This document shows positions 24,510 through 64,000 of a DNA stretch of 64,000 nucleotides, piece after piece. Below the pieces are notes generated by a model. That model was not told the DNA's origin. It worked only from the letters and a program-made list of their open reading frames with translations, and did not search any database. The stretch lies in contig NC_019567.1 of assembly GCF_000317895.1 (NCBI RefSeq), forward strand, positions 2,666,001 through 2,730,000, in the 5' to 3' direction. The number at the start of each line of letters is the position of its first letter. Positions within the stretch are counted from its first letter, which is position 1. Source of the DNA: Bdellovibrio bacteriovorus str. Tiberius. GTDB lineage: Bacteria > Bdellovibrionota > Bdellovibrionia > Bdellovibrionales > Bdellovibrionaceae. A program made the position numbers and the translations under genes.

Positions 24510-26039
24510 ATGCGATCACTTGCTTACTCTGCTCTTTTGCTGGTCTTGTTTACCTGCTGGACTTTGAACTCCCACGCAGCGGCCCCTTTCGCGCGATTGG
24601 CTGATGGTAAAATCCAAGGCCTTCGTACTGCTCACGACACCGAAGCCTTTCTTGGAATCCCTTATGCAGAACCGCCGGTGGGTTATCTTCGCTGGAAAGC
24701 GCCCAGATCCCCGGCCCCTTGGATTGGCACTCTCAACGCCACAAAACTTCCTGTCGCCTGCCCTCAAAAAGGAAATTTCTTTGCCAATGTGCCGCCAGAA
24801 AAATTCGGAACTCCGGTTGGCAACGAAGACTGTCTGTATCTGAATGTATGGAAACCCTTCGCGGCGAAAAAACGCCCGGTGGTTTTGTGGATTCACGGCG
24901 GATCGAATTTCAAAGGCACGTCCGCGGATCCTCTTTATGACGGCGCATGGCTGGCATCATCTTCGGATGTTGTTTTTGTCAGTGCCAACTATCGACTGGG
25001 CATGCTGGGCGCACTAGCGCACGAGGCTTTGAACAAAGGCAGCAAGTGGGACAGTTCCGGCAACTATGTGACTCTTGATTTGGTCGCCGTTCTGAAATGG
25101 ATTCACGCCAATATTGAAAGCTTCGGCGGAGATCCTGACAACATCACCATCATGGGTCAATCCGCAGGCTGCATGAATGTGTGGGGTCTTTTGAAAACAC
25201 CCCTTACCAAAGATCTTTTCCACCGTGCGGTTTGTTCTGCGGGTGTGCCGAATGCCTATCCTCGCTGGGTGGCGGAAACCCGCTCTGAAGACTTCATCGA
25301 AAATCTGGTGGTGAATGCCGGCTTGGTGAAAGAAAAGTCCCAAGCGGAAGCGTATCTGCTAGCTAAGGACACCAAGTGGATCCGTCAGTTCCTGTATTCC
25401 CGCACCACCGAAGAACTGGTGCAGGCCCAAGAATACATCGTGCCGTTTCAGCACTTCAAAGATGACGCCGTTTTCCCGCATGGGGTGGAGGGCATCTTAT
25501 TCGGGAATTTCCACCGCGTTCCGCTGATCTTGGGTTTAACCACCGATGAAGCGACTTATCTTTTGGGTGGCGCCCTGATCAAACCCACCGACAAAGAGCT
25601 GTGGTCCCTGATTCAAAATCCTCCAGCAGATCTGAAAGAGGAAGACCTTATCAAAGACAACAAGGTGACTCTGTACCATTCCAGCACTGCCGCCGGGTCC
25701 CTGGCGATGCAGATGACGATGGAAGAAATCTTCTGGGCGGTGAAAGCTTACAACCCACAGACCTATCGTTATTCCTTTGAATGGAAAGAAACCCCCTCCC
25801 CGTGGAAAGAAGTTTTTGGCGCTGTGCACGGCATGGATGCGATGTTCTACCTGGGGAACTTTGAAACCGAAAAGCCCAGCTTTGCCCGATTTGCATGGAC
25901 GGAACAGAATCGTCAGTCCCGGGAGGCCTTGAGGGACTCGATGGCACCCTACTTCAAATCCTTCTTCTGGGACGGAAATCCCAACACCCAGCTCCCCGCC
26001 CAAGCGTCTGTCTGGGACGGCCGAATGGTCTTTAAATGA
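24510..26039 (+). CDS. Secreted type-B carboxylesterase
   Basis: 509 residues with a signal peptide (about 1-24). Type-B esterase features: AFLGIPYAEPPVG, NEDCLYLNVWKP, HGG oxyanion motif (VLWIHGGSNFKG) and nucleophile GQSAG near residue 217. The triad Glu is likely in TTDEATY and His in FGAVHGMD. It hydrolyses carboxylic esters outside the cytoplasm. The ATG at 24510 follows GGAGG; an in-frame start at 24462 lacks a site. It stands alone. Confidence 0.9.
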   Translation: MRSLAYSALLLVLFTCWTLNSHAAAPFARLADGKIQGLRTAHDTEAFLGIPYAEPPVGYLRWKAPRSPAPWIGTLNATKLPVACPQKGNFFANVPPEKFGTPVGNEDCLYLNVWKPFAAKKRPVVLWIHGGSNFKGTSADPLYDGAWLASSSDVVFVSANYRLGMLGALAHEALNKGSKWDSSGNYVTLDLVAVLKWIHANIESFGGDPDNITIMGQSAGCMNVWGLLKTPLTKDLFHRAVCSAGVPNAYPRWVAETRSEDFIENLVVNAGLVKEKSQAEAYLLAKDTKWIRQFLYSRTTEELVQAQEYIVPFQHFKDDAVFPHGVEGILFGNFHRVPLILGLTTDEATYLLGGALIKPTDKELWSLIQNPPADLKEEDLIKDNKVTLYHSSTAAGSLAMQMTMEEIFWAVKAYNPQTYRYSFEWKETPSPWKEVFGAVHGMDAMFYLGNFETEKPSFARFAWTEQNRQSREALRDSMAPYFKSFFWDGNPNTQLPAQASVWDGRMVFK

Positions 26040-26194
26040 ACCACAACGCGTATCATTTCACGACAAATTAAAAACAGTCCGCATAAAACCTCCACAGAAC
26101 ACAAATTACGATCTGTGCTGGTTAATTAACTCCAGTTTATATAAACACGCGCCGATATATACTCTCGCGACCCTTCAACTCTAAGGAGTTTGCG

Positions 26195-28251
26195 ATGAGT
26201 CTGTTTCGCACTATTATACTTGCTACCATTCTCACTGCGTGCCTTCCGACTAAAGCTGACCTTCCTCCCAATTCAAACACCCCTCAGAAAACTGGTGATT
26301 GGTGGTATATTAATTTTGAGGAACCAAAGTACTTCTCAATGCCGGAACTCAACTGCACCACCTGCAAAAACAAAACGCTTACCTACAGCCAATCGACATT
26401 TATTACCCACAATGAATTCGAGTTCGATACGAAAGTCCTCCAGTGCACCTCATCCCCCATTCCCTACAAAAATACGACAGCCAAACCCTGTGAGGGCTTC
26501 AATGGCAAGCGTGGCGCATATAGTTTCCATTTCAATCCATCTAACAAATACAGTTTCACAGCAATCGACCTATCGTTCTTAATGCCTAAATCATCAGCTA
26601 TAGATATCGACAATATGCAAAGAGGCTTGGGTCCAAGGATTCTTTAAGACTGCTGAACATAGGCCCCAAAAACTCATTTAAATGTTCAGCCAATATCGGA
26701 TCTACATTCTCAGGAGGGCAATGGACTGATGGAGTTCTTACTGGCGATGTATTATTTGTAGAATATCGCTTTCCAGCCTCGACAACGGCCTCTCTTGGAA
26801 ATCTTAAGATTTCCTGTAATATGCCAATTTATCGATCAGGAATGTGGCCGGAGGTAGATAACTCAGAATCGATTAACTACTACGACGGCGTCAATACTCC
26901 ATTAATTACAAGCTTAATGGTCGGACTTCTGACTGATATTAAACTAAAGATTGACCAGGTTAACTCTGATGGAGTTGTCGGCAACAATCCGCCAACTTCA
27001 ATTAGAGATCAGGGTAATCTAAACATCCCGCTAGGCGGAATCTTTACCTTAAAGCTGTATGATGGTACCAACCCAATCAATGCGACATATAAACTGGTTG
27101 CCGGCACGGCCAGCCTCCGTCCAAAAATAGATAAGCCTGATGACATAAAGGTAGGGCTTTGGCTAGATCGTGTCGCCTTACTATTTAAAGAAGGAAATGC
27201 CACTTCTTCTCAGCAAATATTGGCAGTTCATAATGGCAGCCAGAAGTTAATAATTACTCCTACCAGCAATAAATATAGACCAATAACATTATTCTTGAAT
27301 GTTGCGAATCCGAAGTCTCTTGGTACAGCAAGTGGACAATTTGATAGTATCATTCTGCAGTATGCTCATCTGCGCGGGATCCCCCCACAGTTTATTAAAG
27401 CGCAAATAAGACAAGAGTCAAATTTTGACCCAGCAGCCTTTAGGTACGAACCCGTCTCCGTTGATTTAGCCTTATTTGGGAAAAATCCGGTTCGAGACAA
27501 AACGAAAGAAAAGATATTTGGTAAATATATAATCGGGCCCAAAAGAGACCTCAAAGCGATACATATTGACCTTTTAAGACCCAGAAATCGATATGGAGTT
27601 TACTTGGGTTCATCACCAGTTCCGAGCGCCGTCCCGGCCAACTACGAAATGGAATACAACAACGGAAAATCTCTTCAAAGTACAGAATTGATGAGAATCA
27701 ACAACGCGGGATACAAGGCAAAAAATAAGAATGAAACAACCTTTGAACGTCAAAACTGGTTTCTTGACCAAGGGAAAGTAGCCAAAGAGGAACTAATTCT
27801 TTTGAACTCAGGTCTTCGCGATCCGAATTCAAAATCGCGCTTTAGCCCCATTTTTGACTTTACTGCTCAAACAATCGTAGCTTCAAGCTACGGGCTAATG
27901 CAACCTCTTTATTCCACTGTAGCAAACAGAAAATTTGCAAACTATTTAAATGCAGATTCTACAGGAAGAAATCCGTTGGACTTATTCTCCCCTCCAACAA
28001 ACCTGCAATACGGAACAACCTTCTTATCTTTCGTTTTCAGAAAATCAAATGGAAACGAGAATAAAGAAAAAGCTTCTTTTGACTCTTTTACCGTCTTTAG
28101 AGATGCTTGGAAAAGAGGATTCATAATGTACAACGCTGGCCCTTATATCACACGTATCGATATTTCGAGCACGTCTTCATATGGTGCCAAAGTCTGGTCA
28201 CACATTTCAAAATATGAACCAGTTGCAGCTAATCCATTTGTATCCAAATAG
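26195..28251 (+). pseudogene. Lytic-transglycosylase lipoprotein, frameshifted near 26629-26631
   Basis: A lipobox start (ILTAC, Cys near 16; AAGGAG before the ATG) opens a frame that stops at 26647. The continuation is in another frame and runs uninterrupted from 26590 to 28251. The two join smoothly if one base is restored in the GGG run at 26629-26631 (LGSKDSLRLLNIG). The C-terminal part, from about 27340, has a soluble lytic transglycosylase domain: QIRQESNFDPAAF with the catalytic Glu, ASSYGLMQ, and YNAG. It would cleave peptidoglycan. Either the strain has a true frameshift or the base call is wrong. Base composition is AT-rich compared with neighbours, suggesting transfer. If no repair exists, an internal start at 26821 could still give a 476-residue enzyme without export signal. 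Confidence 0.7.
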
Positions 28252-28260
28252 GAGTACGAA

Positions 28261-29238
28261 GTGACTAATTTAATTTTAGCTTCAATCATACTATTGATCT
28301 CCCAGCATGCATCTGCGCTTGTCCCAGACAAGATCCTGAGTGCAAATATTCCTGCTACACTTACAAAAGACCCAGAAACAGGAGCCACTCGAACCATAAA
28401 TGACGGGGTTGTGGCCGACCAATTGTCAGTCAAACTTGATGGGCCAACTAAGCTGCCTTATGACGTTGTGCTCCTGAAGACAACAACACTTGACTGCAGT
28501 TTGCTTGTTTTTAAAGAAGGTCCAAAAGGAAGTTTTAAAAAGTATCCAGTTACTTTCTCCACAAGCTCGTCCATTCACTCATGCTTATCCCTTGAAACAA
28601 AGGACTTTAACCAGGATGGGAAACCGGAAATAGTTGTTCAAATCCTTGATGGAAAAGAAGTCGGATCTCCCTCTATTTTTAGATGGGATGGAGCGAAGCT
28701 TATCGATTCAACTCCGACACAAACTTTAAATGGCGTTACGACTAAGAAGCTTCGATCCGTGCTAATCACCGACAAACCCGTCCAGGGTAAATTGATGATC
28801 TTCGATTACTCCAACGACGGCAGCCCTACCAAAGTATTCACTCTGACAGATAAAGGCCTGCAAGAGACCGGCTCCTATGATTCCATTAACATGGTTGGCA
28901 AAACAGTTTCAGGACTTTCCCTAAGGCCCTCCGTAAAGGACGGTAACTACACACTGACAATGACAAACGTTTCCAGCCATCAGCGTGCAGTAAGGGCGGA
29001 GATTTCTATTAACGGCAAAGTATTAGTTTTCCCAAAGCAGTTCTGCAAATCCCCAGCGCCTGCAAAACCTGATGCTGGCAAAGACGATCTTGATGACAAG
29101 AACGAAGATAAAATGAAGCGGTGTCTACCGAACAATACCGTCACATCATCCTTGAATCTGAAAAGAGAAGATGAACTGAAAATTAAGGTGTATGGAAGAG
29201 GCGACTCATTGATGCGTTTTACTTTGACTAAGAAGTAA
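28261..29238 (+). CDS. Secreted protein with an FG-GAP/VCBS-like motif, unknown
   Basis: 325 residues with a signal peptide (about 1-19). DFNQDGKPEIVVQI near residue 120 matches the calcium-binding FG-GAP/VCBS loop found in beta-propeller proteins, but only one copy is clear. The C-terminal region has a charged linker (KDDLDDKNEDKM). The GTG start follows AGGAG, 9 bases after the transglycosylase frame, so the two form an operon with the same AT-rich composition. Function unknown; a partner in cell-wall work is inferred. Confidence 0.65.
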   Translation: MTNLILASIILLISQHASALVPDKILSANIPATLTKDPETGATRTINDGVVADQLSVKLDGPTKLPYDVVLLKTTTLDCSLLVFKEGPKGSFKKYPVTFSTSSSIHSCLSLETKDFNQDGKPEIVVQILDGKEVGSPSIFRWDGAKLIDSTPTQTLNGVTTKKLRSVLITDKPVQGKLMIFDYSNDGSPTKVFTLTDKGLQETGSYDSINMVGKTVSGLSLRPSVKDGNYTLTMTNVSSHQRAVRAEISINGKVLVFPKQFCKSPAPAKPDAGKDDLDDKNEDKMKRCLPNNTVTSSLNLKREDELKIKVYGRGDSLMRFTLTKK

Positions 29239-29417
29239 ACGGGCAAAAAGTCCAGCGATCCGCGTCACGCTTGCCACACTCAAAGCCCTTTTTAATCGAT
29301 AAGGGCCCCCGGGCAGCTCACATTTGAATTTTTGAGGACATTGAGGCCCCCAAAAGGGGCTAAACTCATAAGGGAAATTTTATTGTCATGGGACCCCTTT
29401 TATGAGAACCAATTTAG

Positions 29418-30881
29418 ATGTCTGAAAACAAAATTCGCAACGAAATTCATGTCTTTATCAACGGCGCTGAACACCGCATTTCTGGCGAAAAAGCCTTCCT
29501 TCCGCTAGCCCAGTATTTACGCTATCACAGCTCCCTTCCCGGAACGAAAGTGGTTTGCGCTGAAGGCGACTGCGGCGCCTGCACGGTGCTTTCGGCAAAA
29601 CTTGAAAACAACACGTGGTCTGAATTCCAAGCCATCAATTCCTGCATCGCCCCAATGTACCTTTTCGACATGGGCTCACTGGTCACGGTGGAAGGCCTTT
29701 CTGAACAGGACGACTTAAGCGAAGTGCAAAACAAGATGCGCGAATTCCACGGTGGTCAATGCGGTTACTGCACGCCGGGGATGGTGTGTTCATTGTCTTC
29801 ATTGGCAGAAAAAAGCGCGTGCTCTGGAAAAGCCATCACAGAAAAGAAAGCCCGCAACTTTCTGACCGGCAACCTGTGCCGTTGCACCGGATATGAACCG
29901 ATTCTGGCGGCTGCGACAAATCTGGATCTTTCAAAATGGAAATCCCTTTCTGCCAAGTATCTGACAGACAGTCAGAAAAAACAGTTCCAGTCACTGGCCT
30001 CTGATTCTTTGATGATTGAAGCGGGCGCCAAGAAATTCACCGCCCCGGCGAACTTCCAGGTGGCGACCGAGCAAAAATCCAAATCCCCACAAACTCGTCT
30101 GGTGGCTGGCGCCACCGATCTGGGCGTTTTGCACAACAAAGGCAAAGCCTTCATGGATGACGTGATGAGCTTGCACAAGATCACTGACACCAGTGAAATC
30201 AAAATGACCGCTGACGGTGTCTGGGTCGGTGCCCGCGTCACCCTGACAGCACTGGAAAACTTCCTGGAAAACAAACTGCCAGAGCTTTCCCGCCTATTGC
30301 GCATCTTCGCTTCACCGCAGATCAAAAACCAAGGCACTCTGGTTGGTAACGTCATGAACGGCTCCCCGATTGGTGACAGCATCCCCGCGCTTTTGGCACT
30401 GGATGCAGAAGTTCATTTACAGTCCACCAAGGGTCTTCGCAAAGTGGCTTTGCCAAAGTTTTACAAAGCCTACAAAGTCTTTGATGTGACTGCGGATGAA
30501 ATTGCCACTGGCATTCTGATCCCGGTGCCGGGACTGGAATGGAAGTCCAAGTTCTTTAAAGTGTCCCTGCGTAAGGACCTTGATATCTCTGCGGTGACCT
30601 TTGCCGCTTTGGTAAAAGTCGATGGCAATACCATCAGTGACGCTCGCATCGCCATGGGCGGTGTTGGTCCGACGGTGGTTCGATTAAGTGACATCGAATC
30701 CGCAATGAAGGGTCAGCCTTTCAGCGAGGATACTTTCACCCGCATGGGCGAAAAAGTGCGCACTCTGATCAAGCCTATTTCAGATCTTCGCGCCACAGAT
30801 GAATACCGCCTGAAGGTCGCCGAGAATTTATTCAAGAAATGCCATATTGAACTTCAACAGGAAATGACAGCATGTCCGTAG
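29418..30881 (+). CDS. xdhA: Xanthine dehydrogenase small subunit (2Fe-2S and FAD)
   Basis: 487 residues. Two 2Fe-2S clusters: CAEGDCGACTVL near residue 48, then CGYCTPGM and CRCTGYEP. The FAD domain follows (VAGATDLGVLHN near 230; GTLVGNVMNGSPIGD near 302) with a C-terminal CO-dehydrogenase flavoprotein domain. It passes electrons from the molybdenum site to NAD. The gene overlaps xdhB by 10 bases. The upstream 179 bases hold a weak hairpin at 29346-29360 and no gene. Confidence 0.93.
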   Translation: MSENKIRNEIHVFINGAEHRISGEKAFLPLAQYLRYHSSLPGTKVVCAEGDCGACTVLSAKLENNTWSEFQAINSCIAPMYLFDMGSLVTVEGLSEQDDLSEVQNKMREFHGGQCGYCTPGMVCSLSSLAEKSACSGKAITEKKARNFLTGNLCRCTGYEPILAAATNLDLSKWKSLSAKYLTDSQKKQFQSLASDSLMIEAGAKKFTAPANFQVATEQKSKSPQTRLVAGATDLGVLHNKGKAFMDDVMSLHKITDTSEIKMTADGVWVGARVTLTALENFLENKLPELSRLLRIFASPQIKNQGTLVGNVMNGSPIGDSIPALLALDAEVHLQSTKGLRKVALPKFYKAYKVFDVTADEIATGILIPVPGLEWKSKFFKVSLRKDLDISAVTFAALVKVDGNTISDARIAMGGVGPTVVRLSDIESAMKGQPFSEDTFTRMGEKVRTLIKPISDLRATDEYRLKVAENLFKKCHIELQQEMTACP

Positions 30882-54895: not shown

Positions 54896-55617
54896 TGACC
54901 AGAATTCTGATTCTGACTGCCATGAAAGAGGAACTCAACGACGTCGCGGGCCTGCCCTCGGCGCCGATGGCCTCTTTGGCACCTTTTGCCGTCCCGGTGT
55001 GGAAGCTGCAAAATAAAGAATCAGACATTCTTATCGCTCAGACTGGCATTGGTCCCATCAATGCCAGTTCAGTTCTGACGTCGTTTCTAAGCACATATAA
55101 ATTTGATGTCGTGATGCTATTGGGATTGGGCGGAGCCATCGACCCGGGCCTTAAGCTTGGCGATATCTGCATTGCCACGGACGTCATTCAGCACGATGCC
55201 ATCTGTTCGTCCAACCACGGATTAGAGTACATGGCCAGCGGAGAACTGCACCTGTCTTTGCCTCCAGAAAAACGCAAATCCATCAAGATCAAAGCCTCGG
55301 CGCAATGGAATCAGAAGATCGACGGTCTGTTGAAGAATAGCCCCTGCGCAGTTCACCATGGCACTGTTTTATCTGGATCTGAGTTTGTTGGCGGCACGGT
55401 TCGCAAGGATTTACTTAAACGAACATTTGCTGACGCTTTATTGGTAGATATGGAAGCTTGTTCCATCGCTTATCTTTGTGAAAAAGCCCAGGTGCCTTTT
55501 GTGATCGTTAAAACGGTGGCTGACACCACTTATAGCAAGCCCACTGATGAATACGTCAACTTCCTGACTTCCAGTCAGAAAAAAACCGCCGATATCATCG
55601 ACGGCCTTTTAAGCTGA
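54895..55617 (+). CDS. MTA/SAH nucleosidase-family protein
   Basis: 240 residues of the purine nucleoside phosphorylase fold. GGAIDPGLKLGDICIATDVIQHD near 79, and DMEACSIAYL near 186, then KTVADTT are the MTA/SAH nucleosidase signatures. It splits 5'-methylthioadenosine or S-adenosylhomocysteine to adenine, which could feed the ade-xdh operon. A futalosine hydrolase role is less likely but not excluded. Confidence 0.85.
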   Translation: MTRILILTAMKEELNDVAGLPSAPMASLAPFAVPVWKLQNKESDILIAQTGIGPINASSVLTSFLSTYKFDVVMLLGLGGAIDPGLKLGDICIATDVIQHDAICSSNHGLEYMASGELHLSLPPEKRKSIKIKASAQWNQKIDGLLKNSPCAVHHGTVLSGSEFVGGTVRKDLLKRTFADALLVDMEACSIAYLCEKAQVPFVIVKTVADTTYSKPTDEYVNFLTSSQKKTADIIDGLLS

Positions 55618-57006
55618 TCACTGCGCCCCGCCTTCGACGCCGAAGTGCGCTGGCATCTTGTGTTCGGTCTTGATCCATACAGGACGCTCGCCGGTTTTTT
55701 GACTTTGCTTGAACATGCGATGCGCTTTCAATGCCGCCAAAAGGTTGACCACATTAGCCAGCACCCAACGCACTGGCACCATCAATGCCTGACTGAAATC
55801 ATTCACCCGAATCACGGCACGCATTCTTTGCAGAATACGAATGCCCATGGCCACCGCATTAAAACTCAAAAGCGCCACAAAGAACGGGCTTTGCAGCAGG
55901 CTTGGCATGGTCTCCCCTTGCAGGCGCAAAGCAAACATCCCCAGCAGAACCAAGATAGAAAGCAAAACCAGAATGCTGTTCGCGGGGCCCTTCCGGTCCC
56001 GCAGCAGGAAGTACCTGTCCACCAGCGTTCCACCCCATTGCAGATTGTGAAAGCCCTGATAAGCAATTCCCAAGGTCCATCGTGACTTCTGGCGGACGCT
56101 CGCCATGAAATCACTGGGGAAGTATTCCCGGGTTGCGATAAACTCTTTTTGTCCGTCCGGTTTCTCAAGCTCAGCGCACACAAAACGGCTTTTAAAGCCC
56201 ATAGGCTTGGCGATAATTCCCAGATGATAGTCTTCAGTCAAAGTGTCTTCTTTTAAAAGCTGCCCGTTTTGCCGCGCCATCATACCCGTCACCAGGTTTC
56301 GCGACATACAAGTTCCCACCCCGGCGGAAGGAATGGCGGCGCCCAGTTCCTGACGGACCAAAAGATCTTTGGTGTGCGCTTCGCTGAATTCGTCAATATA
56401 GATGCCACCCACTAAAGATGATTTGGGCACATCAAAAGAAAACACCGGAATTTGAATGAAGTCAGCCTCGCGACTGTGATAGTTCATCAAGGTGAATGCG
56501 TGAGGGTGCAAAACATCCTCTGAATCCTGCAACAAAAAAAGATCCATCGTCTGGCCCGTGACTTTTTCGGATTGAATAATCTGCCGGGCGATTTCGTTCA
56601 GCATCTGCCCCTTGGAGGTTGGTCCCGCCTGGGTGTTTACAACTACGACAACTCTGTCCGGGAAGAGGCGCTCAAGTTTACTGGCCTCTTCCCATGTGGC
56701 GATGTCGTTGGGGTAAACACCCAGAAAGAACTTATAATTCTGATATTCAATACCTTGGACATTCCCTCGGATCATCGGCCCGATAACATCGGCCTCTTTC
56801 CAATTGGCGATCATGATAGCAATATGTTTCTGCTTCAGCGACTTCATCGTCAACAAAGCCGAGTGCCCAATACGCTGAGGCTTCAGCCTGCGCACCACGG
56901 CCACCACGTCAATGAACAGATCGTCCAAAATGAAGGCCGCCGTTGCCATCACCACCAGCCAGCTCAACAGCGAGAAAGCATCATGATATTCCCAGGTCCA
57001 TTCCAT
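55618..57006 (-). CDS. NfrB-like GT2 polysaccharide synthase
   Basis: 462 residues. One N-terminal helix, then a GT2 glycosyltransferase core: IANWKEADVIGPMI near 66, DSEDVLHPHA near 160 (DxD-like), EDTLTEDYHLG near 262 (acid/base), QKSRWTLGIAYQG near 310 (QxxRW). Three helices follow. This is the NfrB arrangement, but E. coli NfrB has a further C-terminal MshEN c-di-GMP-binding domain that is absent here. Its ATG shares an A with the upstream gene's stop, so translation is coupled. Predicted to build a ManNAc-type glycan given the neighbouring WecB-type gene. Confidence 0.83.
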   Translation of the reverse strand: MEWTWEYHDAFSLLSWLVVMATAAFILDDLFIDVVAVVRRLKPQRIGHSALLTMKSLKQKHIAIMIANWKEADVIGPMIRGNVQGIEYQNYKFFLGVYPNDIATWEEASKLERLFPDRVVVVVNTQAGPTSKGQMLNEIARQIIQSEKVTGQTMDLFLLQDSEDVLHPHAFTLMNYHSREADFIQIPVFSFDVPKSSLVGGIYIDEFSEAHTKDLLVRQELGAAIPSAGVGTCMSRNLVTGMMARQNGQLLKEDTLTEDYHLGIIAKPMGFKSRFVCAELEKPDGQKEFIATREYFPSDFMASVRQKSRWTLGIAYQGFHNLQWGGTLVDRYFLLRDRKGPANSILVLLSILVLLGMFALRLQGETMPSLLQSPFFVALLSFNAVAMGIRILQRMRAVIRVNDFSQALMVPVRWVLANVVNLLAALKAHRMFKQSQKTGERPVWIKTEHKMPAHFGVEGGAQ

Positions 57007-57800
57007 TAAAAGATTCCTCCGACGACCAAAAGACCTTCAAGTTCTCCGCTGTGTGTGTGCTTTTCCAGTGGGTGAAACAACAGCGCCGACATATTCCAGG
57101 AATTTTCAAACCATCCCGTGCGCCCGCCGACACGCCATTCGGTCATGGTCGGCCCCAGATCGGCGCTGCGACTTTCACGTGCATAGAATTCACCATAAGC
57201 GTCCACTTTCAGTTTCGTTAGCGGCGACCAGCGATAACCCTGCTTGACCCAGGCAATAGACACCGGCGTGGACGACAGGCGCGGCACATAGGACGCTTCC
57301 CCATAGACATCAGTGAAGACCTGCGCAATCGGCCAGCTAAAGAAATATCCCGCCGCTGCGACCATGCGTGGATCCCATGTTGTGGCCGCCGGTTGCTCTT
57401 CATTGCCGACCACCGTGCGATAGCCCACCTGGGCCCCGACACTCATCCACTCGACGGGACGAAGCTGCAACCCCACGTGCGGGTTGACCGTGTTGTCATA
57501 GTATTTGGCTTTGGCTCCAGAGGACTGATACTGAATATTGGCACCCAAGTAAGCTGCGAGCTTCGCCGATAGAATCTCGGCAACCGGATGGTAATAGCGA
57601 AGGCGTGTGTCGGTGACGACATCATAGTCGTAAAAATAGCTGCTTTCAGAATACAGTTCGACAAAGCCCTTCGGTGCAGGCTTTGCACTCATCACCATTT
57701 TTTCGGCCAGCACATCCTTGGCTTCATCCGCTTTTGCAGTTGCACAAAAGATAGATGTAAATACAAAAAGTGAACATATATAACGAAACGTCATCCGCAA
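57006..57800 (-). CDS. Outer-membrane beta-barrel-like protein coupled to NfrB
   Basis: 264 residues with a signal peptide (about 1-24). The mature part alternates polar and hydrophobic residues with many aromatic ends (GYRTVVG, GYFFSWP), the pattern of a small outer-membrane barrel. It may play the part of NfrA, the E. coli export or receptor component, at least of its C-terminal region, but is far shorter and no TPR is visible. It sits upstream of the synthase in one operon. Confidence 0.65.
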   Translation of the reverse strand: MRMTFRYICSLFVFTSIFCATAKADEAKDVLAEKMVMSAKPAPKGFVELYSESSYFYDYDVVTDTRLRYYHPVAEILSAKLAAYLGANIQYQSSGAKAKYYDNTVNPHVGLQLRPVEWMSVGAQVGYRTVVGNEEQPAATTWDPRMVAAAGYFFSWPIAQVFTDVYGEASYVPRLSSTPVSIAWVKQGYRWSPLTKLKVDAYGEFYARESRSADLGPTMTEWRVGGRTGWFENSWNMSALLFHPLEKHTHSGELEGLLVVGGIF

Positions 57801-57855
57801 TTCCTTCGCAAAGAGTTCGTGGGAAGGTAGACGGTAAATGAATTTCGCGGCAATG

Positions 57856-57870
57856 AAGAGTTAAACTCTT
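57856..57870. promoter_or_regulatory. Palindrome in the divergent promoter region
   Basis: AAGAGTT-A-AACTCTT is a perfect palindrome with 7-base arms, in the 122-base gap between the outer-membrane gene and wecB. A single AAGAGTT copy lies at 57811-57817. Candidate operator for a regulator of both divergent units. Confidence 0.4.
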
Positions 57871-57922
57871 GTAAGTATATAGGAGTTGCCAACGAATAAT
57901 CTGCGACACTACGGTTGAACGC

Positions 57923-59086
57923 ATGAAAACACTACTCGTCGTATTTGGAACAAGACCTGAAGCTGTGAAATTGGCCCCGCTTATTCTGCAAGCTAAACAA
58001 GATCCGCGCTTTCGCGTGATCGTTGGCTCGACCGGGCAACATCGGGAAATGCTTAGACCTCTTTTGAACTTCTTCCAGATCGAGCCTGATTTTGATTTGG
58101 ATCTGATGAGACCCGGACAAAGCCTTGCAGACATCTCAACATCTGTGATGAAAGGTCTGCATGATTACCTGTCGAACAACAAGGTGGATGGCATCTTGGT
58201 TCAAGGTGACACCACGACTTGCTTTATAGCAGGCCTGGTCGCTTTCTATCATCGCATCCCGATCATCCACGTCGAAGCAGGGCTTCGCTCCGGCGACATC
58301 AATTCACCCTTCCCGGAAGAGTTCAATCGCAAAGCCACAGGCCTGTTAGCAAAGTTCCACTTCGCCCCCACAGAAACCTCGCGGGAAAATCTATTAAAAG
58401 AGCACTACCCGTCTGATGACATCTATGTGACGGGCAACACAGGCATCGACACCTTGTTCGAAGTGCGTAAGCGCCTGCAAAAATCAGATATCTATAATCA
58501 GGAGCTGAACGAACGTTTTGCCTTTTTAGATCCTTTGAAAAAACTGATTCTGGTCACCGTCCACCGTCGCGAATCCTTTGGCACGCCGATGGAAGAAGTG
58601 ATGAAAGGACTGGTGGCCCTGTCAGAACGTCAGGATGTGGAAATTCTGATTCCACTTCATATGAATCCGCAAGTGCGGGCTTCGGCACGCAAGATCTTTG
58701 GGGACCGCGCCCGGTGGATTGACAAGGGACTGCCGGTAAATCCCGGGGAAAGTAAAATCTGGCTGTGTGAGCCCATCGACTATGTCCCGTTTGTCTATTT
58801 GATGGAAAAAGCCCACAAGATCATCACGGACTCTGGCGGCGTTCAGGAAGAGGCACCGTCCTTGGGGAAACCTATTTTGGTGGCCCGGGAAAAAACCGAA
58901 AGACCCGAAGCCATCGCCGCCGGAACATCGATGCTGATTCCCCTGCAGGAAAAAGCTTTCTTCAACACCGCCACCCAGGTCCTGGATACACCCGAGATCT
59001 TTGAACGCATGTCGCAAGCAAAAAATCCATTCGGTGACGGCAAAGCCTCGGAACGCATTCTGGAAGTCCTGGCCGACAAGCTTTAA
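57923..59086 (+). CDS. wecB: UDP-N-acetylglucosamine 2-epimerase (non-hydrolysing)
   Basis: 387 residues. The start LVVFGTRPEAVKLAPLI and later VQGDTTTCF, HVEAGLRSGD, VTVHRRESFG and TDSGGVQEEAPSLGKP are signature motifs of the WecB family. It converts UDP-GlcNAc to UDP-ManNAc, the sugar donor used for the NfrB glycan in E. coli. Divergent from the synthase operon and followed 8 bases later by a secreted TIM-barrel protein. Confidence 0.93.
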   Translation: MKTLLVVFGTRPEAVKLAPLILQAKQDPRFRVIVGSTGQHREMLRPLLNFFQIEPDFDLDLMRPGQSLADISTSVMKGLHDYLSNNKVDGILVQGDTTTCFIAGLVAFYHRIPIIHVEAGLRSGDINSPFPEEFNRKATGLLAKFHFAPTETSRENLLKEHYPSDDIYVTGNTGIDTLFEVRKRLQKSDIYNQELNERFAFLDPLKKLILVTVHRRESFGTPMEEVMKGLVALSERQDVEILIPLHMNPQVRASARKIFGDRARWIDKGLPVNPGESKIWLCEPIDYVPFVYLMEKAHKIITDSGGVQEEAPSLGKPILVAREKTERPEAIAAGTSMLIPLQEKAFFNTATQVLDTPEIFERMSQAKNPFGDGKASERILEVLADKL

Positions 59087-59094
59087 GGTGAAAC

Positions 59095-60249
59095 ATGAAA
59101 GTCCTAGCCTCCATTTTGACAATTGTGTTCGTGGTGCTGGCATCGATCAGCGCGTACGCCCAAAGTGTCGCTATGCGAGGCCTGCGCGTGGATCCGGCGT
59201 ACTTCAGTCGTCTTTATCCAAATCAATCCATTGAAGCGATCGCTAGACGCGTGGTGACTCAAGCAAAACGCGCTGGCGCAAATACTTTGTTTTTATATGC
59301 CTACAGTCCCCTGCATGGATCGTTCTATCGTACCACCTACCCGTTCACCGAAGTCGAAGAACAAATGGGCGAAGACAATGTGTTCTTGGAAGTCTATAAC
59401 ACCGCCAGGGCCCAGGGATTGAAAGTGGTCGCCGTTATTCCGGTCAATGATTTTAAAAAACTTTGGGAGGAACATCCGGACTGGCGTTCTAAAATGCGCA
59501 ATGGCCTGGACTATAAACCCTTTGCCAGGACTCATCACCTATCCGCCTGGCATCCCGCTTATCGCGCGTGGTTTCGGGGCTATGTTCATGATTTACTGCA
59601 AAAGTTCCCGGATCTCTACGCCATCGAGGCCGTGGAGCCCACGGTCGACTGTTTTTGGACGGGTGAACCTGATTACAATCCGGTCGCGAATGCCGAATTC
59701 AAACGACACTATCCTCAAGGCTTACTTGGAGACGCGAACTGGTTTAAATTTCGTGCGCAAGGTTTGACGGACCTCGTAGCGATCATGTCCAAAGTGGCCC
59801 ACGAACACCGAATATTGTCCGCCGTGGTTCACACCTGGCCCGCACACGCCAACGGCCGTTTGATGAGCTCTGAACAAATCCGCGATCAGGTGGGATTTGA
59901 TTTTGATGGAACCCTAAATTTCGTGGGACCTGAAAAGATCGATATCATCGTGGGTGAATTCTTGTGGCAGCAATGGGCCGGCGAATATGGAGGATCGGTC
60001 TTTACTCCGGAATGGACCCGCCGGGCCTCTTTGGATTTTGTTCGTTTTGTCGCCGGTCGCAGTCTGCCCATTTTACATGTCGAGATTTCACCATGGTACG
60101 GACAAGACAGCATGGTGCAGCCCACCCTGCAAGAGTTCCAAAGAACCCTGTGGGCCATACGTGATCTGGGTTACGGTATAGACGTCTATGATCACAGCCA
60201 AATCGAGGATCGCAGCGCTTGGAGCGTATTATCAGATTGGAATCACTGA
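59095..60249 (+). CDS. Secreted TIM-barrel glycosidase-like protein
   Basis: 384 residues with a signal peptide (about 1-22). Features such as GANTLFLYAYSPLHGSFY near 62, ARAQGLKVVAVIPVNDF near 104 and LSAWHPAYRAWF near 149 recall GHL10 and PgaB C-terminal hydrolases. Conserved carboxylates lie at IEAVEPTVD (Glu178/181) and HVEISPWYG near 325. It may trim or release the glycan made by the neighbouring synthase. Co-transcribed with wecB by spacing (8 bases). Family assignment is tentative. Confidence 0.65.
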   Translation: MKVLASILTIVFVVLASISAYAQSVAMRGLRVDPAYFSRLYPNQSIEAIARRVVTQAKRAGANTLFLYAYSPLHGSFYRTTYPFTEVEEQMGEDNVFLEVYNTARAQGLKVVAVIPVNDFKKLWEEHPDWRSKMRNGLDYKPFARTHHLSAWHPAYRAWFRGYVHDLLQKFPDLYAIEAVEPTVDCFWTGEPDYNPVANAEFKRHYPQGLLGDANWFKFRAQGLTDLVAIMSKVAHEHRILSAVVHTWPAHANGRLMSSEQIRDQVGFDFDGTLNFVGPEKIDIIVGEFLWQQWAGEYGGSVFTPEWTRRASLDFVRFVAGRSLPILHVEISPWYGQDSMVQPTLQEFQRTLWAIRDLGYGIDVYDHSQIEDRSAWSVLSDWNH

Positions 60250-61481
60250 ACTATAAAATGACGGCGAAAGACTTCCGTGACCGGCGCTTTTCCCAAGGGT
60301 GAAAAGCCGCGGTTTTCCAATAGATCTGTGTCTTCATCCACCAGCACCTGCCAGATGCCGACCCCATAGAAGCCAAACTCAGTCGATGCCCGCAGTAATG
60401 CCTCCCACGAGGCGGCCTGATGCATGTAATTGATGGGTTCGTTGCCCCCTTCATAGTGGTACGGCGAAACAAAGCATTTTTCGACACTGCGATAGCCAAC
60501 CTCCTGCAACCCCACTTCTTTCGAAACTCCCGTGACCTGGGCGATCTGCTCGACGCTTTTTTGAATCTGTTGCGCAAAGCCTCTGGTCTGAACAGTCAAG
60601 TGATTGGCCAGATCCTCGAAGGCTTCAGGATATTTTGACGTTTTCTTTCCCAAGGAACGGTAAAAATCCAATCCCAGAAAATCCAGGGACTGCCAAAGTT
60701 CGCGCATGTTGTTCTGATGCAAAGTCTCTTTGCTGTTTTTGGGTTTAAAGGTGATGTCGTGGCGCCATTGTTCCAGCTCCCCGCCCCAGGTGCGTTTGGC
60801 ATTTTCCAGCACGAACTGATCCGTGAAGTTGGCTCCGTAAGTGACCGCGACACCACTGGGGTGCAGGCGTTCCTTGGCGGCTTTGATGAAGGTCACCCAC
60901 TTATCCGGAAAGCCAAAGCGCCACTTGGGCTTGCGACTGCCCAAGCCGGAAGTCATCGAATGCATCTCGGCCCCGACAGAATACCACTTAGCCCCCACGC
61001 TCGCCGCCAATGTCATGTAGCGCTCATGAAATTTGAAATAATTGTTAAACCAACTGACCGGATCTTTGGGTTCGATATTTCCATGCCACCACGTGGTGCC
61101 TTTTTCCGTGTAAGGAAATTCTCCCTTAGGCCCCACCACCAGCAGTATCGGCCGAAAGGCCACATCCATTCCCAATTGCTTTGCATAGGCAGCCAATGCC
61201 CGGATGTGAAATTCTTCTTCGGGGCGCAGGGATTCAGGGATCACTGAATTGATCTCACTGCCTTTGCCGGTGATCATGTGGCCTCGCATATTCAAGATCA
61301 AAACTTTGACGCCAAGCTGTTGAATTTTCTCCAGCAGGCGTCGCACCCGCTGTCCCTGTTCGGTTTCATCAACGCGAAAACCCAAAGGATGGTAAGTGAC
61401 GATATTAATGGCGGGCTCAAACGCGGCCGCCGTCCACGAAAACAGGCAAAGAAAAAGAATCATTCCAATTTGCGTCTTCAT
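60243..61481 (-). CDS. Secreted GH113-like glycoside hydrolase
   Basis: 412 residues with a signal peptide (about 1-20). TIM-barrel signs fit GH113 (beta-mannanase-type): VLILNMRGHM near 59, AFRPILLV near 108, acid/base candidate Glu172 (YSVGAEMHSM) and nucleophile candidate Glu327 (LQEVGYRS). Substrate is probably a mannose- or ManNAc-like polymer, not proved. Overlaps the convergent neighbour by 7 bases at the 3' ends. Its coding sequence starts near 61481, 137 bases before the AHSA1-like gene on the other strand. Confidence 0.75.
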   Translation of the reverse strand: MKTQIGMILFLCLFSWTAAAFEPAINIVTYHPLGFRVDETEQGQRVRRLLEKIQQLGVKVLILNMRGHMITGKGSEINSVIPESLRPEEEFHIRALAAYAKQLGMDVAFRPILLVVGPKGEFPYTEKGTTWWHGNIEPKDPVSWFNNYFKFHERYMTLAASVGAKWYSVGAEMHSMTSGLGSRKPKWRFGFPDKWVTFIKAAKERLHPSGVAVTYGANFTDQFVLENAKRTWGGELEQWRHDITFKPKNSKETLHQNNMRELWQSLDFLGLDFYRSLGKKTSKYPEAFEDLANHLTVQTRGFAQQIQKSVEQIAQVTGVSKEVGLQEVGYRSVEKCFVSPYHYEGGNEPINYMHQAASWEALLRASTEFGFYGVGIWQVLVDEDTDLLENRGFSPLGKAPVTEVFRRHFIVQ

Positions 61482-61617
61482 GGCACTATTTTAGATTTGC
61501 ATGCGTCTGCGCGATACCAGTTTGTCCCTGAATATTCACACACCTTGCGCGGCAAAAGCTTCTTTTACCATAAAATCTCCGATAGACTTTGGCTTCCAGC
61601 AAATACCGGAGGTCACC

Positions 61618-62073
61618 ATGATTCCAAAGTTTGAAGTTTCAATCATCATTCAAAAGCCCGTGAACGAAGTTTTTGATGCCGTTTACAATCCAAAGAAAAT
61701 CAGCGCGTATTTTACGACAGCGGGATCATCGGCTCCGTTGAAAGAAGGCACAACTGTGCAGTGGGAATTTGCGGACTTCGCTGGTCCATTCCCCGTGCCA
61801 GTAAAACAAGTCATTCAGGACAAGCTGATTGTGATCGAATGGGAGGCCGAGGCCGGTGGCTACAACACCAAAACAGAATTTGTCTTTGAAGCTTTGAACG
61901 ACAAAGAAACCAAAGTGAAGATCTATGAAACCGGCTGGAAAGAAGATGAAGCCGGCATCAGCAGTTCTTACAAAAACTGCATGGGCTGGTCCCAAATGGC
62001 CTGCGCGATGAAGGCGTATCTGGAATACGGCATCAACCTGCGCCAAGGCGCATACAAGCCTCTTTACTCTTAA
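61618..62073 (+). CDS. SRPBCC/AHSA1-like protein
   Basis: 151 residues. Starts with FEVSIIIQKPVNEVFDAVYNPKKISAYF and has GWSQMACAMKAYLEYG near the end, the START-like fold of AHSA1-type proteins. These bind small hydrophobic ligands or stimulate Hsp90; the ligand is unknown. GGAGG precedes the ATG at 61618; an upstream in-frame ATG is rejected. Stands alone. Confidence 0.85.
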   Translation: MIPKFEVSIIIQKPVNEVFDAVYNPKKISAYFTTAGSSAPLKEGTTVQWEFADFAGPFPVPVKQVIQDKLIVIEWEAEAGGYNTKTEFVFEALNDKETKVKIYETGWKEDEAGISSSYKNCMGWSQMACAMKAYLEYGINLRQGAYKPLYS

Positions 62074-62137
62074 GACAAAGGGCCTGCAAAAGACCTATTT
62101 CCTGGAGGCAAAATAGCAGTTCGTTTACTGTAATCTG

Positions 62138-62821
62138 ATGGAAATAGGTCAAATTCTCTCCTACGACGAACTACGCACATTCTCTGGATTTCAAATTCAA
62201 CATGGAATGAACTATTCTACCCCAAAAGGGGGTCATGTCTTTCTCATGTCCATGAGAGAAAATGCCCCATATGAAGACTGGATCTCAGAAGATGGATCTT
62301 TGGTAGAATACGAAGGCCACAATCAAACGAAAAGCCTTTGCGATGATCCTGAAAGAACTGACCAGCCACGCAAAAATAAAAGTGGAAGTCTCACCAAAAA
62401 TGGTAAGTTCGAGCAAGAGGCCTTAAAGTTTAAAAATTATGGAATCGGCCCCTGCAAGATTTCTATCTTCAATAAAGTCAAAGACGGCATTTGGACATTC
62501 TGCGGAGTTTTTTCTCTTATCGACGTGAGCTATATCCAAGTAGGTCCACGTAAAGTCTTTCGCTTCAAACTTCAACTGGCGGAGTCAAATCCCCAAACCC
62601 ATTCCGTCGTAGACTTGAGACACGATCGAATGATTCCCAGCGAAATTCAAGCGGCGGTCTTTAAACGCGATCAAGGCCGCTGTGTAAAGTGTGGTTCAAC
62701 GGAAAACCTTCACTTTGATCACATACTACCCTACTCCAAAGGTGGATCCTCAAAGAAAATTGAGAACATTCAAATTCTCTGCGCCAAGCACAACCTTTCC
62801 AAAGGAAATCGCTTTGTCTAA
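62138..62821 (+). CDS. Probable SRA-HNH modification-dependent endonuclease
   Basis: 227 residues. The N-terminal half matches the SRA (SET and RING-associated, YDG-type) domain: YEGHN near 57, TKNGKFEQEALKF near 85, WTFCGVFSLIDV near 115, KVFRFKLQ near 137. The C-terminus is an HNH nuclease: CVKCGSTENLHFDHILPYSKGG, then LCAKHN with zinc cysteines. SRA-HNH enzymes such as TagI and Sco5333 cut DNA carrying 5-methyl- or hydroxymethylcytosine. This one may restrict phage or prey DNA. AT-rich composition suggests transfer. Overlaps the next gene by 8 bases. Confidence 0.8.
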   Translation: MEIGQILSYDELRTFSGFQIQHGMNYSTPKGGHVFLMSMRENAPYEDWISEDGSLVEYEGHNQTKSLCDDPERTDQPRKNKSGSLTKNGKFEQEALKFKNYGIGPCKISIFNKVKDGIWTFCGVFSLIDVSYIQVGPRKVFRFKLQLAESNPQTHSVVDLRHDRMIPSEIQAAVFKRDQGRCVKCGSTENLHFDHILPYSKGGSSKKIENIQILCAKHNLSKGNRFV

Positions 62822-63377
62822 AAAGACTTCTTACTTCAAAGACCATAAACGTCGACTTGCGAAGATGAGCATCTCGACAAGCGCCTTTCGCCGGCAAGGC
62901 AAGCAAGGTTTAATTCGCTTTACTCAAAACTACATAAACGAGAGAATTGATCTTCATACTTTTGCTAAAGCCCTAAGATCTGGCAATTACCAAAAATATC
63001 TAGACAAGCAGACTCTGCTTTTAGTTCAAGCTGCAAAAAAGTATAATTGCCGTTGGGGGACAGCTCGCAAAGGTCTAAATATTTTCTTCCGAGACGTTCT
63101 ATACAACAGCTACTTTATCAACGAACTGAAACTCAACTTAAACCATGGTTGGCACCTAGAAATTCCTTTAGACAGCAAAACAATGAGTCAGATTCGCCGA
63201 CTTCACAAATCCGAAAATTTGCAGTCGCTAGGTTTTGCAACACCCCAAACAACCTCAATTATCGCCCTGCATCCAGAGAACTCACTTAAATATCAAATAG
63301 CTGCCACTGCAATTGCCAAAGCGAAGTACCAAAAACACACCCGGGTCGACCTCGATATGGAGTTTTGGACCACTTAA
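62814..63377 (+). CDS. Unknown partner of the SRA-HNH nuclease
   Basis: 187 residues from a TTG start (62814) preceded by AAAGGAA, overlapping the nuclease stop by 8 bases; the earlier in-frame ATG (62691) would lie wholly inside the nuclease frame. No family recognised. Helical and basic, with NCRWGTARKGLNIFFRDVLYNSYFINEL near residue 80 (the RWGTARKGLNIFFRD part looks conserved). Composition like the nuclease gene. Could be a DNA-binding, regulatory or modification partner; function not invented here. Confidence 0.6.
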   Translation: MSKKTSYFKDHKRRLAKMSISTSAFRRQGKQGLIRFTQNYINERIDLHTFAKALRSGNYQKYLDKQTLLLVQAAKKYNCRWGTARKGLNIFFRDVLYNSYFINELKLNLNHGWHLEIPLDSKTMSQIRRLHKSENLQSLGFATPQTTSIIALHPENSLKYQIAATAIAKAKYQKHTRVDLDMEFWTT

Positions 63378-63383
63378 TCCCCT

Positions 63384-63432
63384 TGCCGAGCTTTCGGCAG
63401 CCACCGATTCCCCGGCAGATTCACCTGCCGGG
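63384..63432. other. Two consecutive hairpins downstream of the nuclease pair
   Basis: TGCCGA-GCTT-TCGGCA (63384-63399) and CCCGGCAG-ATTCAC-CTGCCGGG (63411-63432) are two perfect inverted repeats within 50 bases after the stop codon at 63377. Neither has a good T tract; a combined weak terminator or structured RNA is possible. Confidence 0.45.
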
Positions 63433-63566
63433 TTCCCGACAGACTCCTTATCAGATCAAATTAAACGCACTTTCAGCCCTCATCTAGGCTGGCACAACCG
63501 GTGCTTTATAGATCTGCATAACGCTGGCGCTGATGCCGGCAACATAAAAACACTAAGGAGTTCCCA

Positions 63567-63986
63567 ATGAAAAAACAAATCGCTGCTCTGATCTTGATTG
63601 TATCTTCCGCTTTCGCTACTTCTGCTCACGCAGACAACCTAAGTGCCCTGCTAACGGTTCTACAAAATGGCAGTGCACCCACTGAAAAAATGGAAATGAA
63701 AGACTACAATCGCTGCACCGATGAAGAACTGGCTTCCGGGATGTGTATCCTGAAAATGTCAGCCGCGATGACGACAATGATGGATATCAAAATAGCTGAA
63801 GGTAAAAAAGTTCAGTTCTCTGCTGATCCGGAGTGTGGCCGCGACGTGATCGTGCGCGATCCAACCAACTACGAACTGGATCTGCGTTCCGAAACTGAAT
63901 TCAAAGATTCCGGCACTTACACTGTAAACAACCGTGGATTCAGAAATTGTGAAATCCAGGTTGTGATCGCAGCCCCACAACTTTAA
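63567..63986 (+). CDS. Small secreted protein, unknown
   Basis: 139 residues with a signal peptide (about 1-22, ending AHA). The mature part has four cysteines (RCTDEELASGMCI, PECG, NCEI) that may form two disulfides, and beta-rich character. No family recognised. AAGGAGT precedes the ATG. The 189-base upstream gap contains two hairpins (63384-63432) and no gene. Confidence 0.75.
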   Translation: MKKQIAALILIVSSAFATSAHADNLSALLTVLQNGSAPTEKMEMKDYNRCTDEELASGMCILKMSAAMTTMMDIKIAEGKKVQFSADPECGRDVIVRDPTNYELDLRSETEFKDSGTYTVNNRGFRNCEIQVVIAAPQL

Positions 63987-64000
63987 AATTAAAAACGGGA

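Follow-up and report, generated by a model that had tools for sequence, protein, structure and literature searches.

The Pga, Pel, Psl and cellulose systems combine a polysaccharide synthase with an outer-membrane barrel and a secreted hydrolase, often together with a deacetylase. A variant of this synthase-dependent type is encoded in Bdellovibrio bacteriovorus str. Tiberius, within a stretch of 64,000 nucleotides of contig NC_019567.1 (here called the window). It comprises a short NfrB-type synthase of the GT2 family, an outer-membrane protein (OMP), the epimerase WecB and two hydrolases, one GHL6-type and one GH113-like, both of which belong to the system. We consider it probable that the block is a pathway for an N-acetylmannosamine (ManNAc) exopolysaccharide which carries its own processing hydrolases. 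An earlier note, made from the sequence alone, had read the five genes as a glycan pathway related to NfrA, NfrB and WecB; that reading was right for two of the three named proteins, NfrB and WecB, and wrong for NfrA.

The closest described system is that of E. coli, in which NfrB, NfrA and YbcH act with WecB to make the N4 glycan, the receptor sugar of phage N4 (PMC8669469, PMC8669472). Genetic work in E. coli has shown that this glycan needs WecB, and no other enzyme of the enterobacterial common antigen pathway (PMC8669469, PMC8669472), while NfrB is controlled by cyclic di-GMP (c-di-GMP) through its MshEN domain (PMC8669469). An earlier survey reported NfrB homologues in delta-proteobacteria, some lacking MshEN and often with WecB as a neighbour (PMC8669469, PMC8669472). 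The Tiberius locus resembles the E. coli system in the motifs and identity of its synthase, in its WecB partner, in an outer-membrane barrel gene that overlaps the synthase gene, and possibly in a small periplasmic partner, which in E. coli is YbcH, a DUF4434 protein. It differs in that the synthase lacks MshEN, the barrel lacks both tetratricopeptide repeats (TPRs) and the NfrA_C domain, the hydrolases have no detectable sequence link to YbcH, and relatives of the locus carry a DUF2334 protein.

Two other systems invite comparison. The Pga/Hms system for poly-N-acetylglucosamine (PgaA, PgaB, PgaC) likewise has a GT2 synthase, an outer-membrane barrel, a secreted hydrolase to which the predicted GHL6 fold is similar and, as in relatives of the Tiberius locus, a deacetylase-like partner. 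However, the Tiberius synthase is of the NfrB type rather than the PgaC type, WecB is present, the barrel is smaller and without TPRs, and the deacetylase-like protein of the relatives is a DUF2334 protein, which either has its own gene or is joined to a GH113-like portion. The Pss system of Listeria (pssA-E; PMC4125290) makes a beta-1,4-ManNAc chain with galactose branches and has its own hydrolase, PssZ (PMC11439720); the likeness, drawn by description, lies in a beta-1,4-ManNAc exopolysaccharide with a dedicated hydrolase, whereas Listeria is Gram-positive, and no counterpart of its BcsB-like PssD or of its c-di-GMP receptor PssE was seen in Tiberius.

The synthase

The synthase matches PF13641 in Pfam (E 4e-39). 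Against the NCBIfam models of the NfrB group its best score is 391 bits for NF011305, where the cut-off is 409; NF008411 gives 324 bits, where it is 1170, so that the equivalog cut-offs of the group are missed. Identity to E. coli NfrB is 36% across the entire catalytic part. The characteristic motifs are found at D161-x-E163-D164 (DSED at 161), T257-E-D and Q306-x-x-R-W (QKSRW), and the key residues of DxD, TED and QxxRW are invariant in 21 relatives. Hydropathy indicates hydrophobic segments at about residues 9-35, 344-362, 374-392 and 408-426. The protein ends past the membrane region and Pfam detects no MshEN domain in it, unlike in E. coli NfrB; control by c-di-GMP through MshEN, as in E. 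coli, is therefore unavailable. A search by sequence found no solved structure related to the synthase.

In a quick tree of 76 relatives, which contains several long branches, the Tiberius protein lies within a clade made up of short synthases, the majority of which come from Bdellovibrionota and Rhizobiales. This clade is split from that of E. coli NfrB at 100 in the Shimodaira–Hasegawa-like approximate likelihood ratio test (SH-aLRT), and the proteins that carry a long C-terminal extension fall, with one exception, in the E. coli clade. The synthase does not fall among chitin or cellulose synthases, and the family models, identity, motifs and tree all bear out its earlier assignment to the NfrB type. 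Judged by sequence, it is a true NfrB relative in a separate short clade lacking MshEN. Such an enzyme would sit in the inner membrane, where it would polymerise its sugar and push the chain into the periplasm; its family and motifs are observed directly, while its substrate and processivity we infer.

Within the genus, the synthase tree places the Tiberius copy inside a group formed by G019, G023, G013, G016 and G018, in conflict with the rpoB tree. A constraint keeping these five together without Tiberius is barely rejected (p 0.045), a hint of synthase transfer between species.

Short NfrB genes followed by wecB were also seen in a set of loci from Rhizobiales and one record labelled Terriglobia (L116, L119, L122, L124, L125, L126, L129 and L130). 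Additional genes in L126 are for HlyD-like and DUF2334 proteins, and in L130 for X-like and GH113-like proteins. The set is apparently an undescribed relative of the system, without the Bdellovibrio type of barrel.

WecB and the sugar

WecB scores 418 bits against TIGR00236 (cut-off 210), in agreement with its earlier reading as an epimerase beside the synthase. By the function of its family, the Tiberius protein would convert uridine diphosphate N-acetylglucosamine (UDP-GlcNAc) to UDP-ManNAc. It is the sole copy in the Tiberius genome, where no members of the WecG/TagA family were found, and the synthase is therefore the only obvious user of UDP-ManNAc. Both GH113 and, in two genomes, GH26 fill the role of hydrolase; since both are beta-mannanase families, a beta-1,4 linkage in the polymer is likely by analogy.

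It is also conceivable, if unlikely, that the glycan is built from another sugar (N-acetylglucosamine, glucose or a mixed chain), with WecB playing a minor or separate part. No measured substrate of a short NfrB was found in the literature searched, and WecB lies apart from the synthase in several loci (for example G018a, G016a, G045 and G054). Yet in Bdellovibrionota and Rhizobiales alike, the majority of loci have WecB next to the synthase, and most of the remaining synthase genomes have close WecB homologues elsewhere. In addition, WecB alone of the common antigen pathway is tied to NfrB by the E. coli genetics (PMC8669469, PMC8669472), and the beta-mannanase affiliation of the GH113-like and GH26 proteins also speaks for a ManNAc chain.

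The two hydrolases

The GH113-like protein matches PF22612 at 45 bits (cut-off 27), and the only strong matches of its family profile in the PDB are beta-1,4-mannanases (5ylh, 7dv7 and 3civ; E 5e-17). Its catalytic glutamates, E172 and E327, do not vary among 20 relatives and align with a GH113 mannanase; the residue aligned with E327 is Glu in 5ylh, while 5yli has Ala. In contrast to those endo-beta-1,4-mannanases, the Tiberius gene lies in a biosynthetic locus, and the substrate of its product is probably an N-acetylated mannan-like chain. The only poly-ManNAc hydrolase activity known to us is that of Listeria PssZ. A scan of the genome collection for close relatives of the GH113-like protein alone returned nothing, records near the source genome possibly having been excluded.

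The GHL6-type protein matches PF14871 at 40.8 bits (cut-off 35) and is modelled as a (beta/alpha)8 barrel with a predicted local distance difference test score (pLDDT) of 76. The nearest solved folds, by VIA-align, are Cwp19 (5oq2, Z 26.9) and the hydrolase domain of PgaB (4p7q, Z 26.6); by sequence the match to PgaB (GH153) is weak (E 0.007). Invariant residues stand where strand 4 ends (E178, E181 and D185) and where strand 7 ends (E330). The protein is reached from the GH113-like family profile at E 4e-18 after iteration, suggesting that the two hydrolases are probably distant relatives of each other. On inspection, both have an N-terminus resembling a signal peptide.

Hydrolases and synthase occur together. 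The comparison covered 141 genomes of the order, 27 with a synthase and 114 without, G022 (which retains a 252-residue synthase remnant) not being counted as a synthase genome. GH113-like proteins occur in 19 of the 27 and in one of the 114, the exception (G009) being a 55-residue piece interrupted by a stop; GHL6-type proteins occur in 14 of the 27 and in none of the 114. One or both are present in 23 of the 27. Two of the remaining genomes, G074 and G075, encode a GH26-family protein directly 3' of the synthase (the Pfam match is from the G075 copy). The other two, G020 and G021, are fragmented drafts: in one a contig breaks off within the gene that comes before GH113 in sister operons, in the other within the synthase. 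The pattern is not one of simple linkage, as several species have their hydrolase genes at a great distance from the synthase; in G016 the synthase is at 1.88 Mb, GHL6 at 1.83 Mb and GH113-like genes at 1.65 and 0.99 Mb. When the traits are mapped on a genus-level rpoB tree, no change of one runs counter to the other, and only three independent events are well supported.

In other genomes the genes are clustered. A GH113-like gene is the last of the synthase operon in G014, G016, G018, G037 and G046, adjoins wecB in G081 and G083, and lies 3' of wecB in G108; a GHL6 gene adjoins wecB in G051. In the Oligoflexia loci L161 and L103 the hydrolases are again clustered with the synthase, L103 having on one strand GHL6, GH113-like, barrel, synthase, two unknown genes, a DUF2334 protein and WecB. 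This DUF2334 protein is 1002 residues long and has a weak N-terminal GH113-like stretch, below the Pfam cut-off; it is a probable hydrolase–deacetylase fusion. With the independent groups being G014/G016b/G018b, G037, G046, G051, G081/G083 and G108, together with L103 and L161, clustering of synthase and hydrolases arose in several families. The suggestion that the hydrolases are part of the pathway is upheld by this repeated clustering and by the co-occurrence.

A different explanation, which we regard as improbable, is that the hydrolases are predatory enzymes directed at the surface glycans or peptidoglycan of prey and stand beside the synthase by chance. The organism is indeed a predator, both proteins look secreted, and the GHL6 fold is also close to that of the Clostridioides difficile cell-wall hydrolase Cwp19. 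Against this, genomes without a synthase, that of the type strain HD100 included, lack both hydrolases apart from the G009 fragment, whereas nearly every synthase genome has one, and clusters of synthase and hydrolase genes occur in more than one family.

The small partner of the E. coli system was also considered. The product of E. coli ybcH (L091:1092-1982) is a full-length DUF4434 protein, presumably of a TIM-barrel, hydrolase-like family. Aligned as single sequences with hhalign, YbcH and the GHL6-type or GH113-like proteins gave probabilities of about 2%, which is not significant. YbcH has been described as a putative periplasmic scaffold; E. coli may thus own a hydrolase-like partner in its N4 glycan system.

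The outer-membrane barrel

The AlphaFold model of the OMP consists of a signal peptide and 12 strands (pLDDT 83), and the protein has neither TPRs nor a Pfam match. In a fold comparison the top ranks went to ordinary 12-strand barrels; PgaA (4y25, Z 9.6) came among many others, and no polysaccharide exporter stood out. The barrel had earlier been taken as a counterpart of NfrA. That candidate was rejected, as descent from NfrA is contradicted by the predicted 12-strand barrel without TPRs and by the absence of NfrA_C (PF13283) from all 141 genomes, in a search whose E. coli control was positive.

Of 28 related synthase loci, the G022 fragment left aside, 25 have a relative of the OMP next to the synthase according to profile searches; at the same position G051, G052 and G055 have an open reading frame (ORF) of similar size which was not recognised as an OMP relative. 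The barrel is a near-constant partner of the synthase, and is not NfrA. The OMP–GT2 pair, often with WecB, is kept across the order, in line with the gene-order conservation that the earlier reading called for. The OMP is a candidate export channel for the chain or its fragments.

The DUF2334 partner and its relics

In many relatives a DUF2334 protein of 560-620 residues is encoded, usually directly after the synthase. The earlier note mentioned neither this protein, which most relatives have, nor the lack of MshEN in the synthase. D253, H326 and H330 are invariant in these proteins, a set which we take to resemble the metal site of polysaccharide deacetylases, and the protein is probably a deacetylase. 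No solved relative was found by sequence, and the literature searched contained no paper with both DUF2334 and polysaccharide. In seven species of the genus the synthase locus retains only the N-terminal half of the DUF2334 protein beside the synthase.

In Tiberius the DUF2334 half is absent beside the synthase, and the N-terminal half stands alone at 1.754 Mb (C1:1754102-1754767; L061:8043-8783), adjoining an ABC transporter gene set. In those seven sister species this site also holds the barrel and synthase, and the barrel–synthase–WecB unit therefore appears to have moved. The stand-alone half, also seen in HD100 (L081) and G010 (L082), both without a synthase, seems to be left over from an earlier synthase locus. 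The 570-residue partner Y of other operons was not found in the Tiberius genome, in a search made without a positive control. G022 (L043:6177-9441) has a decaying copy, in which the synthase remnant lies by the N-terminal DUF2334 half and the 570-residue partner. A separate, borderline DUF2334 protein is encoded in Tiberius at C1:2836687-2837259 (26.0 bits, cut-off 26).

That the block is a decaying accessory island without a working pathway in Tiberius is very improbable: the DUF2334 half and partner Y were found neither beside the synthase nor as homologues in the genome, relatives have broken or partial copies such as that of G022 and the absence from HD100 is clean, but all five frames are open and the catalytic residues intact, the synthase, WecB and both hydrolases are retained in G007 at 90-98% protein identity, and seven other species have a reduced form in which no more than the N-terminal half stands by the synthase.

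Proposed pathway

The gene families, the intact active-site residues, the co-occurrence and the clustering point to a ManNAc pathway whose sugar, linkage, export and processing would be as follows. WecB would supply UDP-ManNAc from UDP-GlcNAc, and the short NfrB-type synthase would polymerise ManNAc and translocate the chain to the periplasm. The small barrel may then pass the chain or its fragments outward. The two secreted TIM-barrel hydrolases, acting in the periplasm or at the surface, would cut the polymer during export, whether to set its length, to clear failed chains or to release it; a role in cutting the polymer is suggested because of the co-occurrence, the clustering, the probable fusion in a relative and the conservation of the active sites. 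In relatives, the full machine including the DUF2334 protein would resemble processing by PgaB or PelA.

Several points weigh against this pathway. The absence of MshEN and NfrA means that regulation and export must differ from those in E. coli, and Tiberius is without the deacetylase domain and the 570-residue partner of other operons. The GHL6 fold matches the cell-wall hydrolase Cwp19 as well as it does PgaB, and its model confidence is middling. Outside G007 the GH113-like proteins are 27-56% identical, so that specificity may vary. The hypergeometric p values for co-occurrence with the synthase (2.6e-16 and 2.8e-12) ignore shared descent, and within the genus the co-occurrence rests on only three to six independent gains or losses, a number too small to reach significance.

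A wider proposal is made tentatively, and we hold it a little less probable than its converse: that there is an undescribed class of system, which combines NfrB synthases without MshEN with WecB, a small barrel, deacetylases of the DUF2334 family and hydrolases of beta-mannanase fold dedicated to poly-ManNAc, and which is widespread in Bdellovibrionota, reduced in Rhizobiales, and has been gained, lost and moved. A role in attachment to prey, which had been suggested earlier, finds no backing, as HD100, a predator, lacks the block and Rhizobiales carry the synthase–WecB pair. We know of no predators among the Rhizobiales.

Genomic context

The five frames are open without interruption across 55618-61481 of the window, with the positions, order and orientation first described (Table 1). 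The GT2, WecB, GHL6-type and GH113-like proteins all pass Pfam cut-offs.

Table 1. Features of the Tiberius block, in window positions
Feature	Position	Strand	Length and evidence
Short NfrB-type GT2 synthase	55618..57006	-	462 aa; PF13641, NCBIfam NfrB-group models, tree
Outer-membrane beta-barrel (OMP)	57006..57794	-	264 aa; ORF, AlphaFold model, relatives beside synthases
Divergent OMP/WecB intergenic region, presumed two-way promoter region	57795..57922	.	Sequence read
WecB, non-hydrolysing UDP-GlcNAc 2-epimerase	57923..59086	+	TIGR00236
Secreted GHL6-type TIM barrel, predicted glycoside hydrolase	59095..60249	+	PF14871, model
Secreted GH113-like hydrolase	60243..61481	-	PF22612, catalytic glutamates
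Block in Tiberius and G007, absent from HD100	55608..64000 (window edge)	.	blastn, junction read

The OMP ORF runs from a TTG at 57800, with a better ATG at 57794, and shares one base with the start of the synthase gene. WecB is divergent from the OMP, the GHL6-type gene begins 8 bases past it, and the convergent GH113-like gene overlaps the GHL6-type gene by 7 bases. The divergent OMP/WecB layout recurs in G015, G019, G020, G026, G037, G081 and G083; a scan of the intergenic region for consensus promoters found them no more frequent than in shuffles. The five-gene arrangement is not due to chance, because the genes are collinear in G007 and the OMP–GT2 pair recurs across the order.

Compared with HD100 (G004) by blastn of the window and flank, Tiberius and G007 have an extra block of about 8.4 kb, from 55608 to about 64023, which ends some 23 bases outside the window. 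It lies between a nucleosidase gene and the next conserved stretch; in HD100 the flanks are joined with 17 bases between, a clean absence. On the rpoB tree G007 is nearer to HD100, and therefore both loss in HD100 and transfer are possible. Passengers in the block are an AHSA1-like gene (61618-62073), an HNH gene (62138-62821) and two small ORFs. The HNH endonuclease gene and the small ORFs, which have no Pfam match (62691-63986), form an AT-richer stretch (GC 0.44) and are possible relics of the block's arrival. Elsewhere in the window, at 26001-30000, the GC content dips to 0.42-0.45 from about 0.51 around it, which suggests foreign DNA.

Implications

The literature searched contained no paper naming both Bdellovibrio and NfrB, and a term search of the Tiberius genome paper (PMC3539863) found no mention of these genes by name. 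The type strain HD100 is without the block, which may explain why these genes have gone unstudied. If the proposed pathway is correct, part of the Bdellovibrionota would make a ManNAc-type surface polymer, with the proteins named for test in a cultivated strain. Two enzyme families would then be likely to cut such polymers, and could be put to use as reagents in work on the E. coli N4 receptor sugar, which is as yet uncharacterised.

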